Both the position numbers and the translations under genes were made by a program. A DNA stretch of 50,710 nt from a virus. Position 1 is the first letter of the stretch; every line of letters starts with the position of its first letter. Location: positions 1 through 50,710 of the IMG/VR virus record IMGVR_UViG_3300042868_009269. One strand, written 5' to 3'. The notes under the pieces are model-generated. The model had not been told where the DNA came from and did no database searches. It saw only the letters and a list, made by a program, of their open reading frames with translations. This document shows, piece by piece, positions 4,825 to 9,869 of this stretch.

Positions 4825-7800
4825 TTATTCCTCAGCAATCTTAAGACCACGTAATTGTATCAGAGATATAAATGGATTTATGGTGTCACGAAAATGATTA
4901 TTCAACCGAGTTAATTCCGATTCTATATCGCGCATTTTTTCGTATGGGTTGTTATATTGCATAGTATTAGCTGCTGTGTTTACTTGATCAGCAGGTGATT
5001 GTTGTCCTGTTGCTGATGTTCTAGCAGGTTGTTCAGGTACAGCAGCGTATCCTGCCATACCTGCATTGAATGCCATAGTAGCTTGTGCAGCTTTTAATAA
5101 CTTTTCAGAATCAACTTTGTCAGCAAAATTGTTTAATACTTTAATGATATTTTCTGTGTCGTCTTGCTTACCAGTAAAGGCATCGAACGCTCTTGTAAAA
5201 AAGTTACTAGATGTTAAACTTGCAAAATCTCGTAATGCTGTTGTTAATGCACTAAATGTTGTTGATAATTTGTCAATTTTATCAATTGGCATAGAAGTAA
5301 TTTTTTCTGCCAATTCTCCTAGATATTGAGTAGTTATAGGAAGTTTTAAACCTTCAACATTTAATCCTGTAATAATAGTAAGCAGTTGTCGGAAACGATT
5401 ATTAACATTATCAACAAACGCTACTCTGATGCCTTGAATTGTAGTAAACATTGCTTGTAAAGCAGGATTAAATGTTGCTAACCCCCTTGATATGTTAGCA
5501 ACTGAAGTCTTATTAAACTCTGTTAACGCAGCCGAAACTGCTCTAATATGTTCAGGATCCATAGCCATTGCAGCTAGACCTTCTTGTTGTAATAGTTGTT
5601 CTTTAGTTGCAGCAGCTACTTCAGTACCGCCTGCTTCAGCTTCATCATCATCAAAGAAACCGCCAATCCAGTTTCCTGCCATATTACCTAAACTAGCACC
5701 AATGGCTACGCCAACAGGGCCGCCTAACAATCCGACTGCGCCGCCAACAACACCGCCAACAACACCGCCAATATCTTCACCTTTCATTTCTTCGCCGGTT
5801 AAATATGCCTTGCCTACATCATATGCATCTTTACCTACCATTGCGGCGGCGCCGATACCGCCGGCTGCGGTAAGCGCTCTGCCTGCTAGTCCTGAGCCTG
5901 GAATTGCTTTTAATGCACGGCCACCGGACTCTAATATGCCGCCACCGCCGCGCCTGCTTAACCCATAAGCACCTGTTGCTGCGGCTAATAAACCGCCACC
6001 TGTTGCAGCGCCGGCTGCGGTTGTTGCAGCAGTTGCGGCAGGAGCCGCTATCGCAGGTAAAGCTGAACCTGTCATTACCCATCTAAGTAAACTGGTAACG
6101 CCTGCTGCTAGTGCAGACTTTGCTGCGGATGCTGCAAAAAGTAAACCAATTCCCATTGCTAGTGCATCAATTACTGCCGGAGAGGAAAACAGTGCTGATG
6201 CTGCTGCTTTAGCAGTTTCTGTTAACACATGTATGATACCAGGTAATGCTTTTGCAAATAGTTTCTTTGCAGCATTTGCTAGTTTTTCACCAAATGTATC
6301 GCCTTTGAGATCGTCTATAAATTCAGAAATATCTGTTAAAAATTTATCAATATTAACAACAAGCATGTCAATAAATTGTCCTACACTGTCGCCTGCTCGG
6401 TTAATGTTAGGAAAGAATTTTCTCATAAAGGAATCAGCTATTTTTGTAAGACCATCATACAAAGTTTCTGTGACTGATTTTTGCCTTAACGCGGCAATTC
6501 TTTGAGCTTTTTCCTCATTGCTTAAATTTTTATCAGCATTTATAGCCGCTTCTCGTTGCTTGTTATGTTCTTTTAAATCGTTACCCGACAATGCAAATTC
6601 ATCAAGCATTTTGGTTAACGGTTCAGCAAACTGGCCCAGTACATTATTTCTAACTGTGGTAAACGCACCCGAAAGTCTATTCAATTGATTTTGAAAGTTT
6701 ACTCCAGCTGTAACCATTGCGTCATTTGCTACTGCGACTGTCTTAAATGCTTTTTCTTGATCTGCTGCACTTTTTGCTGCGGCAGTTCTTGCACTAATAA
6801 CCATCGCAGCAGCAGCATTACCTGACTGGGCTTCATATTGCAATGCTCGAACTGTTGCATCGTCAATAGCAAGAAGACTTCGATTAATTCTTCTTATTGA
6901 TCCTTCACCATCGAGCTGACCTTTCTGAATTTCTTGGCCTATTGCCAAAGTATCATTATATAAATTGCCAACTAGTGGGCCGAGACTTGCAATAGAGTCA
7001 AGGAAAGGATCCATGATAGGTATCGGGGCGGCGGCTGCATTTAACAATCCTTTTGTTAGTGACTCATATGAGCCGGGTATTGCTGCTGCTGCACCTATCA
7101 TAAGATTTAGTTCAGCATTTAATCGCTCACCCTTTGCTCCGGAAAAACGCATCATAAGTGCATCAATGTTAGCATTATCTTGGAAAAAGTCTTTTTTGGA
7201 ATCGTTAATATCTTTCATTGAACGACCCATTACACTAGAAAATCTCTGTGTTTGTTTTATTGATTCTTCAACCGTTTGCCTATTCATTGCAGTTAGCTGA
7301 AAATCTTGAGCCAACCCACGCTGTCTAATACTCACTTCTTCGGCAGCAAATTCTGCTGCTTCGTCTAGTGTCAATCCTAAGCTAGCTGCAAATGAACCAG
7401 CATTAGCTATCCCCGAAATAAACTTTGCAAAATTAGCTTTACCCAACATTGCACTAGCTTGCCCAAAACTAGTAAGTAAGCTAGCAGCTTCACCTGCACT
7501 CATACCTAAACGAGTTAATTCAGCAACTGCATCTTGTGCTTCTGTGCCGCTAGCGCCTGCGCCACCTAAACCGCTTTGAGCAAGGCTTCTAAAAGCTTCG
7601 CTGGTATCCATAAATGTTTTGTACATTAATCCAGCACCGGCTGCTAGTCCAACAGTTGCAGTTTTAATAGCAGCAGTTAGAATATTGCCACCTGAAACAA
7701 ATGTATCTCGCATGTCTTTACCTACACGATCAGCAAAATTTTCTCTAAATGATTTTAATGCTTTTACTTGCTTGTCAGAGGTAACATTAAGAACCCGTTC

Positions 7801-8031
7801 AAGTTCTTCGGTTTGTTTTTCAGATGCTGACTTTCCGGCTTTAGCAGCTTCGTTAGTCGCTGTTAGAAGTTTTTCATATGCTTCTGCTTGTTTTGGATTC
7901 ATTTTACCCAAAGCTTGTACACTTTTTATAAGTTTTTCTTGAGTAGAATCTAAAGCAAATCCAGGCAGCACTAGTCTACTAGAGTTACCGTCGCTGTCTA
8001 CGATTTCTACAGTGTATTTGTCAGTGGCCAT
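4825..8031 (-). CDS. Probable tail tape measure protein
   Basis: 1,068 residues, begun by ATG at 8031. Long, mostly helical and Ala-rich, with a large central hydrophobic Gly/Ala region (about residues 600-790, including GGVVGGVVGGAVGLLGGPVG), the usual make-up of tape measure proteins that fill the tail tube and set its length. It lies beside the gp26-like gene pair at 8130, in keeping with the usual link between tail assembly chaperones and the tape measure, although here the two are divergent. T4's own tail-length protein gp29 has 590 residues, so this one predicts a longer tail if it acts the same way. No enzymatic motif was seen. Identification is by composition, length and position rather than by a diagnostic motif. 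Confidence 0.75.
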   Translation of the reverse strand: MATDKYTVEIVDSDGNSSRLVLPGFALDSTQEKLIKSVQALGKMNPKQAEAYEKLLTATNEAAKAGKSASEKQTEELERVLNVTSDKQVKALKSFRENFADRVGKDMRDTFVSGGNILTAAIKTATVGLAAGAGLMYKTFMDTSEAFRSLAQSGLGGAGASGTEAQDAVAELTRLGMSAGEAASLLTSFGQASAMLGKANFAKFISGIANAGSFAASLGLTLDEAAEFAAEEVSIRQRGLAQDFQLTAMNRQTVEESIKQTQRFSSVMGRSMKDINDSKKDFFQDNANIDALMMRFSGAKGERLNAELNLMIGAAAAIPGSYESLTKGLLNAAAAPIPIMDPFLDSIASLGPLVGNLYNDTLAIGQEIQKGQLDGEGSIRRINRSLLAIDDATVRALQYEAQSGNAAAAMVISARTAAAKSAADQEKAFKTVAVANDAMVTAGVNFQNQLNRLSGAFTTVRNNVLGQFAEPLTKMLDEFALSGNDLKEHNKQREAAINADKNLSNEEKAQRIAALRQKSVTETLYDGLTKIADSFMRKFFPNINRAGDSVGQFIDMLVVNIDKFLTDISEFIDDLKGDTFGEKLANAAKKLFAKALPGIIHVLTETAKAAASALFSSPAVIDALAMGIGLLFAASAAKSALAAGVTSLLRWVMTGSALPAIAAPAATAATTAAGAATGGGLLAAATGAYGLSRRGGGGILESGGRALKAIPGSGLAGRALTAAGGIGAAAMVGKDAYDVGKAYLTGEEMKGEDIGGVVGGVVGGAVGLLGGPVGVAIGASLGNMAGNWIGGFFDDDEAEAGGTEVAAATKEQLLQQEGLAAMAMDPEHIRAVSAALTEFNKTSVANISRGLATFNPALQAMFTTIQGIRVAFVDNVNNRFRQLLTIITGLNVEGLKLPITTQYLGELAEKITSMPIDKIDKLSTTFSALTTALRDFASLTSSNFFTRAFDAFTGKQDDTENIIKVLNNFADKVDSEKLLKAAQATMAFNAGMAGYAAVPEQPARTSATGQQSPADQVNTAANTMQYNNPYEKMRDIESELTRLNNHFRDTINPFISLIQLRGLKIAEE

Positions 8032-8129: not shown

Positions 8130-8981
8130 ATGGCTAAAACAAATAATCCACTGAGTGGTTATTTTAGAGCACCAAAGCTGTACACCAAGTTACCCAGTGG
8201 TGGACGCTTTTACACTGACGACATCGTCGAACTGGGAGAGAGTCGCGAAGTTGCAGTGTTTGCTCTTACTGCTAAAGACGAAGCAATTCTCAAAAACCCT
8301 GATGCACTACTAAACGGCGAAGCAGTTTCACAAATCATTAAGAGCTGTGTGCCTGCTGTACAAAACCCAAGAAGAATGATGAGCAGTGATATCGATACAC
8401 TGCTAGTGGCCATCCAAGGTGCTACATATGGCGACGACATTGACGTAAAAGGTAAGTGCCCTGAATGCGGCGCTGAATGTTCTGGTATTGCCAGCGTTGA
8501 GGGCGCACTCGAAACAATGAACACATTGGAAGAATCATACTCGTTTGAAACAGCAAGCGGACTAACCATCGAAGTTAAACCGTTTAGTTATGATAGTACT
8601 ATTAAAGCCGGCATTGCAAATTTCCAAAGTACTCGCAGTTTACAGAGCTTGTCTGCTATCACAGATGAGTTAGAACAGCTTAAAGCATTCAACAGCAGCT
8701 TTGTTCGTATGGCCAAAGTCAATTTTGATCTTGTGGTAGATTCTGTTGCTAGTATTCGAGGCGCCGGCGAAAATGAGCAGGAGTTTGTGGTAACAGATTC
8801 AGATCAGATCAGAGAGTTCTTAGAAAATTGTGAAACCACAATCGGCAAAGAAATCGAAAAGACCATTGAGAAGATCAGCAGAATTGGCGTTAACAAGAAA
8901 GTCCAATTAGAGTGTGACGAGCACGGCGCATTTGAGCAGGAGGTTGGCTTCGACCCTGTAAATTTTTTCACAGCTTCCTAA
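8130..8981 (+). CDS. 26: Baseplate/tail assembly protein, T4 gp26-like
   Basis: 283 residues from the ATG at 8130; an upstream GTG in the same frame (8073) lacks a ribosome binding site, whereas AACAGGAG stands 7-14 bases before 8130. The N-terminal part (LYTKLPSGGRFY, then VAVFALTAKDEAILKNPDALLNG) matches the T4-type baseplate family that includes gp26 of the baseplate hub. A zinc-site-like CPECGAEC sits at residues 110-117, and a second Cys/His cluster (LECDEHG) near residue 262 suggests a bound metal. The gene ends just after a slippery run of T residues and is followed by a -1-frame extension (see the CDS at 8969). The pair resembles tail assembly chaperones that make a short and a long form. 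Confidence 0.85.
   Translation: MAKTNNPLSGYFRAPKLYTKLPSGGRFYTDDIVELGESREVAVFALTAKDEAILKNPDALLNGEAVSQIIKSCVPAVQNPRRMMSSDIDTLLVAIQGATYGDDIDVKGKCPECGAECSGIASVEGALETMNTLEESYSFETASGLTIEVKPFSYDSTIKAGIANFQSTRSLQSLSAITDELEQLKAFNSSFVRMAKVNFDLVVDSVASIRGAGENEQEFVVTDSDQIREFLENCETTIGKEIEKTIEKISRIGVNKKVQLECDEHGAFEQEVGFDPVNFFTAS
8963..8969 (+). promoter_or_regulatory. Candidate -1 ribosomal frameshift site (T TTT TTC)
   Basis: Read in the gp26 frame, the bases are T|TTT|TTC, a canonical X XXY YYZ slippery heptamer, only three codons before the gp26 stop at 8979-8981. An overlapping second heptamer, A|AAT|TTT, lies at 8960-8966. Slippage by -1 leads straight into the open frame that ends at 9202. Lambda G/GT and P2 E/E' use comparable sites for their tail chaperones. 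Confidence 0.65.
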
Positions 8982-9202
8982 CTTCAGCTGAGCCTGAAGA
9001 GATTGTTGCATATTTAGGCTCACTAAAAAAGGGAGCAGAAGAACTTCAAAAAAACCTAACAGAACTAGTCATATATAGTGGTGGTTCGTTTTCGTGGACC
9101 GAAGTATGGCACATGAGTCACAGTGAACGAGAAATGGCAGTTAAAGTACTTAACGATTATAGTAAAGCCAAAGCAGGAAAATCAGCCACAGAGTGGATGT
9201 AG
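8969..9202 (+). CDS. C-terminal extension in the -1 frame, gp51-like / tail chaperone 'T' part
   Basis: 77 codons in the -1 frame relative to gp26, stop at 9200-9202. The product after slippage would read HSFLTSAEPEEIVAYLGSL and continue with a helix and a SWTEVWHMSHSEREMAV segment, resembling the C-terminal part of tail assembly chaperones and the small gp51-type hub assembly protein of aquatic T4-like phages. The frame is open only from 8936. It has no ATG, GTG or TTG before the ATG at 9113, which would leave just 29 residues, so normal initiation cannot make it. A fusion to gp26 by -1 frameshift, about 357 residues in total, is the simplest explanation. The alternative is a non-canonical start such as ATT. 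Confidence 0.65.
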   Translation, partial: HSFLTSAEPEEIVAYLGSLKKGAEELQKNLTELVIYSGGSFSWTEVWHMSHSEREMAVKVLNDYSKAKAGKSATEWM

Positions 9203-9226: not shown

Positions 9227-9255
9227 AAAAAGCAAGCGTAATGCTTGCTTTTTTT
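9227..9255 (+). terminator. Rho-independent terminator after the gp26/gp51 genes
   Basis: An 11-bp perfect stem, AAAAAGCAAGC (9227-9237) with GCTTGCTTTTT (9243-9253), a 5-base loop and a run of seven T. It begins 25 bases after the -1-frame stop codon at 9202, which also supports that frame as the true end of the gene. Confidence 0.85.
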
Positions 9256-9869
9256 ATGTCTGCAATAATGTAAATCACGCTATATATTTTGCATCATGGT
9301 ACACCTAGCTATATACGCTTATCCCTACAACAATTAGTAGACACTTCGTGTCTTATCTTACTGCATTCATTCACTTCGTTTCACTACGCTCATTCATTTG
9401 TAAGATATGTTTTTATTTGTTTTATTAATTACGAAGTTATCACGATAGTGGAGCCATAGTTCACCCGTTACAGGGTGAACAAAAAATAAAGCGTCATCAC
9501 GATGAGCTTCACCATCTCCAACCCGGGTGCTGTTAGGAAGCAGAGCGCCTTCTCTCCCCATACACTACCGTCACTTGTATTCGCTCGGAAGCTGATATAA
9601 TCTAGTGGAGTTTGATTATACCAACCAGCGGGTTGCTTTTTCTCAGTGCCCGCATTCTTTTAATGCCATAACGTTGTTTGCATCTTGCCGACTGCATTCC
9701 AGATCTGACGCCGTAACGAAATCGCTACGAAGACTCAAGGAATCCGATTTTTGGCCTCGGTTGGGCGGTGCAGTGCCTTATGTAAATGATTTAAACGAGG
9801 ATTGAGCTATGCTCTGTGCTTGCCAGGTGTGTGTAAAACTGCCATATGATGCCATGTTTGTATATGTAA
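9256..9869. other. Long stretch without a convincing gene, rich in inverted repeats
   Basis: 614 bases between two convergent operons, in a genome that otherwise wastes little space. I see no tRNA and no credible protein. A 66-codon GTG frame at 9605-9805 has no ribosome binding site, and its Arg/Ser-rich product resembles nothing I know. Inverted repeats present: GACAC/GTGTC (9340-9352), ATCTTAC/GTAAGAT (9355-9361 with 9400-9406), GTTCACCC/GGGTGAAC (9459-9480) and TATAATC/GATTATA (9596-9620). The segment 9500-9800 looks richer in G+C than the neighbouring genes. It could be a structured RNA, a replication or packaging site, or the remnant of a lost element. Confidence 0.5.
9459..9480. repeat. 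Perfect 8-bp hairpin in the gene-free stretch
   Basis: GTTCACCC, six-base loop, GGGTGAAC. It is followed on the plus strand by a run of A and preceded on that side by no T tract, so it is not an ordinary terminator for either direction. It is the strongest local structure in 9256-9869. Confidence 0.6.

Follow-up and report, generated by a model that had tools for sequence, protein, structure and literature searches.

The question raised by this locus is whether one gene of the T4 gp26 family gives rise to two proteins, a short one that ends at the stop codon of its own frame and a longer one that continues in the −1 frame. The window, i.e. the whole stretch of DNA analysed here (50,710 nucleotides of the IMG/VR virus record IMGVR_UViG_3300042868_009269), carries a gp26 homologue of 283 aa on the + strand (8130–8981), with an ATG start at 8130 and a stop codon at 8979–8981. 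The 0 frame ends in GTA AAT TTT TTC ACA GCT TCC TAA, in which the canonical slippery heptamer T_TTT_TTC (8963–8969, + strand; codons TTT TTC in frame 0) is located three codons before the gp26 stop and is overlapped from upstream by another in-frame heptamer, A_AAT_TTT (8960–8966, + strand). The −1 frame extension, designated TAC-C (8969–9202, + strand), encodes 77 aa, reading FFHSFLTSAEPEEIVAYLG...KSATEWM, followed by a stop at 9200–9202. Its first ATG is found at 9113, which is +150 nt from the heptamer, with no ATG, GTG or TTG before it. The position of the heptamer, the length of the open −1 frame and its lack of an early start codon were all noted in the first-pass annotation of this DNA, and the sequence agrees with it on each of them.

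The 283-aa product is assigned as the putative short form of a tail assembly chaperone (TAC-N) on the basis of its matches to PF12322 (T4_baseplate; 4.6e-16, 59.6 bits against a curated cut-off of 24.5) and to phrog_150 (baseplate hub; 2.8e-20), as well as the Foldseek matches of its model to other models of the T4-like gp26/gp51 family. By tblastn, homologues are detected in jumbo phages of the RaK2/121Q/PA5oct/Atu_ph07 kind, with about 27–38% identity, and the gp26 of those jumbo isolates that were aligned is 27–39% identical to that of the window. Searches of the PDB by sequence and by fold returned no relative of gp26. In the AlphaFold models the body of gp26 is confident, the slip site lies within a disordered C-terminus (pLDDT about 25), and the −1 tail is helical. 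Searched alone, the tail gave nothing significant in Pfam (PF12322 included) or PHROGs, and it shows a weak structural match to the Moogle “tape measure chaperone” (E 2.2, TM 0.60). A protein search of the window returned this single gp26-like gene and no separate gp51-type gene with a PF12322 domain of its own.

The same arrangement is found in all 14 of the jumbo phage isolates examined (SCTP-2, Vibrio 2.275.O, Phosso, PA5oct, Atu_ph07, 121Q, RaK2, CBB, GAP32, Munch, XaC1, Hallingskeid, BF and XbC2), in which an in-frame T_TTT_TTC precedes the gp26 stop by 1 to 11 codons and is directly followed by a homologous −1 tail (FFR..LL..PEEI...). Protein-level conservation of the −1 tails begins right after the heptamer, upstream of the annotated starts; the extension of PA5oct has no start codon anywhere, and that of RaK2 has none before +96 nt. 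The slip regions of the cyanophages S-PM2 and P-SSM2 read CT TTT TTC GCA TAA and GT TTT TTC GTA TAA, respectively, with gp51 in the −1 frame and then a large ORF, and T_TTT_TTC is also present in Vibrio phage ValKK3 and Stenotrophomonas phage Bhz51, with T_TTT_TTT in phiN3. In Bacillus phage SP-15 (L016, 3977–4916), a gp26 homologue is positioned between the tube gene and a large tail ORF and has a T6 run at the same place, with the tail-like ORF (FER motif) in the +1 frame, so that the two could be joined only by a shift of +1 or −2, unless the sequence contains an error; no close relative of SP-15 was found in which its +1 frame could be checked.

Among metagenomic loci from IMG/VR, 80 window-like (48–98% identical) and 80 cyanophage-like, an in-frame slippery heptamer together with a homologous −1 tail was found in 160/160, a count that does not represent independent events because the loci are related and partly redundant. 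The heptamer is T_TTT_TTC in 150 loci (71 of the 80 window-like and 79 of the 80 cyanophage-like ones) and T_TTT_TTT in one cyanophage-like locus, whereas the remaining nine, all window-like, have A_AAT_TTT without T_TTT_TTC. Given the amino acids and the local codon usage, the codon choice T-TTT-TTC has a chance of about 0.12 per sequence. The tails of two cyanophage-like loci (L161 and L180) are short, the available sequence ending at or near that point. Loss of the heptamer in close relatives, which the first-pass annotation had named as a point against frameshifting, does occur in the nine loci (L044, L055, L056, L072, L074, L075, L077, L083 and L093), which read AAT TTT TCC as a result of a T-to-C change (TTC to TCC), yet the overlapping A_AAT_TTT and the −1 ORF are kept in each of them. 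Conservation of the heptamer and of the frame relation, which the first-pass annotation had proposed to look for, is thus found in isolates and metagenomic loci alike, and with slip site and −1 ORF both preserved throughout the relatives examined, their coincidence is, judged by sequence comparison, more than chance.

The manner in which the −1 frame has diverged adds to this. Pairwise substitutions in the window-like set, counted over the 126 nt that separate the slip region from the window’s first ATG, amount to 1190, 790 and 2454 at codon positions 1, 2 and 3 of the −1 frame, respectively, the distribution of a frame that codes for protein and is entered at the slip site. The interval from 30 nt before the heptamer to 60 nt after it is free of ATG, GTG and TTG in 59 of the 80 window-like loci. 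The cyanophage-like loci frequently do have a start codon there, and in Phosso, Atu_ph07, 121Q and many cyanophages an ATG overlaps the stop codon of gp26 or lies close to it. An independent start in relatives was another observation that the first-pass annotation had held against frameshifting; a start near the junction is indeed present in some of them, but the heptamer is kept there as well. Given that such starts occur in many relatives, especially cyanophages, some of the tail could therefore come from coupled initiation.

The RNA directly 3′ of the slip site is structured. The relevant element, a probable stimulator (8973–9024, + strand), contains a predicted stem of 8989–8998 paired with 9013–9022 (TGAGCCTGAA / TTTAGGCTCA; inverted repeat I4). 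Compared with a null in which the same −1 peptide was kept and its synonymous codons were resampled, the window RNA has z values of −2.4 to −3.5, depending on the stretch (p 0.01 or less), and the 45–52 nt that follow the heptamer rank first or close to first in stability within the neighbourhood. The mean z was −3.1 in 59 cyanophage-like sites (78% with p<0.05) and −2.2 in 49 window-like sites. RNAalifold found no consensus structure shared by these 49 window-like and 59 cyanophage-like sites, and the structure is therefore conserved in position, not in sequence or register; S-PM2 and P-SSM2 have hairpins at the same place that are different and equally good. Because of that RNAalifold result, the case for a stimulator rests on the stability of each sequence relative to synonymous resampling, and it is on this ground that the downstream structure would stimulate frameshifting. 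A perfect Shine–Dalgarno-like AGGAGGT is present inside gp26 at 8938–8944, 18 nt upstream of the heptamer, in the window and in the close relatives viewed. It was considered as a −1 stimulator of the dnaX type and dropped, its 18-nt spacing to the heptamer being too long; the corresponding spacing in dnaX is shorter. Taken together, the two in-frame slip sites, the nine relatives, which would frameshift on A_AAT_TTT only, and the hairpin that is kept in place but not in sequence might represent a natural series that shows turnover of slip site and stimulator with the frameshift retained, a reading to which we would give somewhat less than an even chance.

The −1 frame is followed by an intrinsic terminator (9227–9259, + strand; AAAAAGCAAGC-GTAAT-GCTTGCTTTTTTT, inverted repeat I1), with arms at 9227–9237 and 9243–9253 that are complementary at 11/11 positions and a T run thereafter. 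It begins 25 nt after the −1 frame stop, and the strong terminator described at that distance in the first-pass annotation is hence borne out by a perfect 11-nt inverted repeat with T’s. The matches that Rfam gave around it were all below threshold. Further downstream, at about 9330–9410, the window is non-coding and contains a small hairpin (AGACACTTCGTGTCT), the core of which (GACACTTCGTGTCTTATCTTACTG) is retained 3′ of the chaperone gene in every close relative and was not found repeated within the window.

The relationship to T4 indicates what the −1 tail corresponds to. In T4, gp26 (208 aa) and gp51 (249 aa) each cover the whole of the PF12322 model and are, for that reason, paralogues, with gp51 consisting of a gp26-like protein and a C-terminal extension fused in frame. 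It is this extension that the −1 tails resemble: phrog_634 is common to residues 147–246 of T4 gp51 and the cyanophage −1 ORF, and the cyanophage-type −1 tails align with the gp51 C-terminus by hhalign (E 2e-8, probability 95). The window-type tails match the cyanophage tails in profile comparison (3e-5, probability 72), while their direct profile match to T4 gp51 is weak (E 0.0028, probability 11, in the MxPxER register), and the proposed homology between the window tail and the gp51 C-terminus would accordingly be carried by the cyanophage intermediate. The “gp51-like tail” of the first-pass annotation is therefore an apt name for the C-terminal domain, but T4 gp51 itself is a gp26 paralogue that carries this domain. 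The number of PF12322 copies follows the same division, with one in every searched phage that has a −1 slip site (SCTP-2 falls below this model) and two in T4, Melville, PhT2 and phiAS4, whose gp26 ends without a TTTTTT slip site; the gp26 ends of T4 and Melville keep FF, which is coded TTC TTT.

From these observations, the window gene is very probably a tail assembly chaperone made in short and long forms by −1 frameshifting, and the earlier proposal that a −1 shift joins gp26 and the tail into a pair resembling lambda G/GT is strongly supported by the comparative evidence. The most serious competing explanation, although an improbable one, treats the −1 ORF as a small gene in its own right, which reinitiating or coupled ribosomes would translate from a separate and perhaps non-standard start close to the end of gp26. 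It would fit with the annotation of the −1 ORF as such in databases and with the ATG that Phosso, Atu_ph07, 121Q and many cyanophages have at or near their gp26 stop, but it leaves the 59 of 80 window-like loci with no start from −30 to +60 nt, the PA5oct extension with none at all, and a protein conservation that starts directly at the heptamer, upstream of the annotated starts; moreover, relatives that do have an ATG still retain the heptamer. Slippage of the RNA polymerase on the T6 homopolymer, which would yield the same protein product as ribosomal slippage, is marginally less probable still. The nine relatives that have only T5, followed by CC, keep the −1 ORF, ribosomal frameshifting is typically accompanied by structured RNA 3′ of the slip site, as seen here, and known transcriptional slippage usually needs longer runs.

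Two further explanations dispense with slippage altogether, and each is very improbable. One is that a sequencing or assembly error in the T6 run has split what is really one gene. Such homopolymer errors do occur: Stenotrophomonas phage IME-SM1 (L198) has five T’s at the slip site as compared with six in its near relative Bhz51 (L200), by which the annotated gp26 is lengthened and the tail shifted to another frame, and the public record probably carries a sequencing error in this homopolymer. However, the T run and the frame relation recur in well over 100 separately assembled contigs and isolates, and the 0 frame ends within a few codons in nearly all of these; for the clade of the window, an error in the T6 run, considered in the first-pass annotation, is refuted by the relatives L002–L008. 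The other is that the T run and the open −1 frame are incidental and that the short gp26 protein is the sole product, against which stand the coding-type substitutions in the −1 frame, the presence of the slip site and tail in 160/160 loci, and the homology that links −1 tails with the C-terminal part of T4 gp51, which is encoded in frame.

In the frameshifting model preferred here, most ribosomes would stop at 8979–8981 and produce the 283-aa, gp26-like short form (TAC-N), while some would slip back by one base on T_TTT_TTC (8963–8969), and possibly also on A_AAT_TTT, aided by the RNA structure just downstream. The slipped ribosomes, in a proportion that would be the smaller one, would then read on to 9202, giving a minority long form of about 357 aa (TAC-NC) that includes the 77-aa domain, which is modelled as helical. 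If the roles are like those of lambda G/GT, the tape measure protein would be coated by the short form, and tail-tube subunits would be brought in by the long one. T4 would obtain the same two products from duplicated genes, namely 26 for the short form and 51, the in-frame fusion, for the long one.

A tape measure gene next to such a chaperone had been put forward in the first-pass annotation, and a large gene does adjoin, but it is divergent and is not recognized by family searches as a tape measure gene. It encodes a 1068-aa putative tape measure protein (4825–8031, − strand), so named on the basis of its length, composition and position; family searches of its product yielded no significant match and no tape measure identification, and no homology was found between it and the presumed counterpart in Phosso. 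A large ORF follows directly, or after a small ORF, in S-PM2, P-SSM2, SP-15 and ValKK3. Elsewhere in the window, one + strand ORF (28228–49911) extends without interruption over 7227 codons, more than two fifths of the whole length, and has a repetitive sequence resembling that of structural proteins.

With regard to known systems, phage lambda gpG/gpGT consists of a short and a −1 frameshifted long tail chaperone, as is proposed for the window. The lambda G/GT genes are co-directional with the tape measure gene, an arrangement from which the window differs in that its large neighbour is divergent. T4 gp26 (TAC-N) and gp51 (TAC-NC) belong to the same family, PF12322, as the window gene, with two divergent genes in T4 as opposed to one gene with a −1 site in the window. 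S-PM2 and P-SSM2 share with the window a single PF12322 gene, T_TTT_TTC, a predicted downstream hairpin and a −1 ORF (about 57 aa in these two cyanophages), but differ from it in that an ATG is often found within or beside the hairpin and the large ORF directly follows in the same direction. In the myovirus TAC of Pakpunavirus/Andersonviridae, the stop codon of the first ORF is likewise preceded by a T-rich −1 site that is conserved, the motif of which, GTTTTT, is unlike that of the window (PMC12846349). The G-T frameshift has been described as conserved among long-tailed phages “except T4” (PMC5009743), and gp51 as essential and of unknown function (PMC3004832).

The first-pass annotation knew of no report of such frameshifting for T4-like phages, which does not hold: to judge by passages in two papers that cite Vladimirov, Gautam and Davidson 2022, these phages are covered there, the PRFect paper stating that in some T4-like phages a short gene exists beside a long fusion gene (PMC10885494), and the other referring to slippery poly-T sequences in the TAC-N genes of T4-like phages (PMC12846349). 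Going by those same passages, the principle of the frameshift in the window was already known, and the window is an unusually clear new example of a frameshifted TAC and not the discovery of the principle. The article itself (Virology 2022, 566:9–15) reportedly finds frameshifting conserved in several T4-like groups, with T4 using genes 26 and 51. What may be new beyond it is the depth of the clade around the window, the overlap with A_AAT_TTT together with the nine losses of T_TTT_TTC, and the RNA structure as measured against synonymous recoding.

The frameshift tail is routinely entered in databases as a hypothetical gene of its own, as in several of the public records compared here, or is missed; in PA5oct (L012, after 4849) and RaK2 (L017, after 2349) the −1 extension is unannotated. 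The natural slip-site variants and the hairpins provide testable material. The comparison independently supports the answer of the 2022 study, as it is conveyed by the papers citing it, that frameshifting is widespread in the T4 supergroup and that the two forms in T4 come from duplicated genes.
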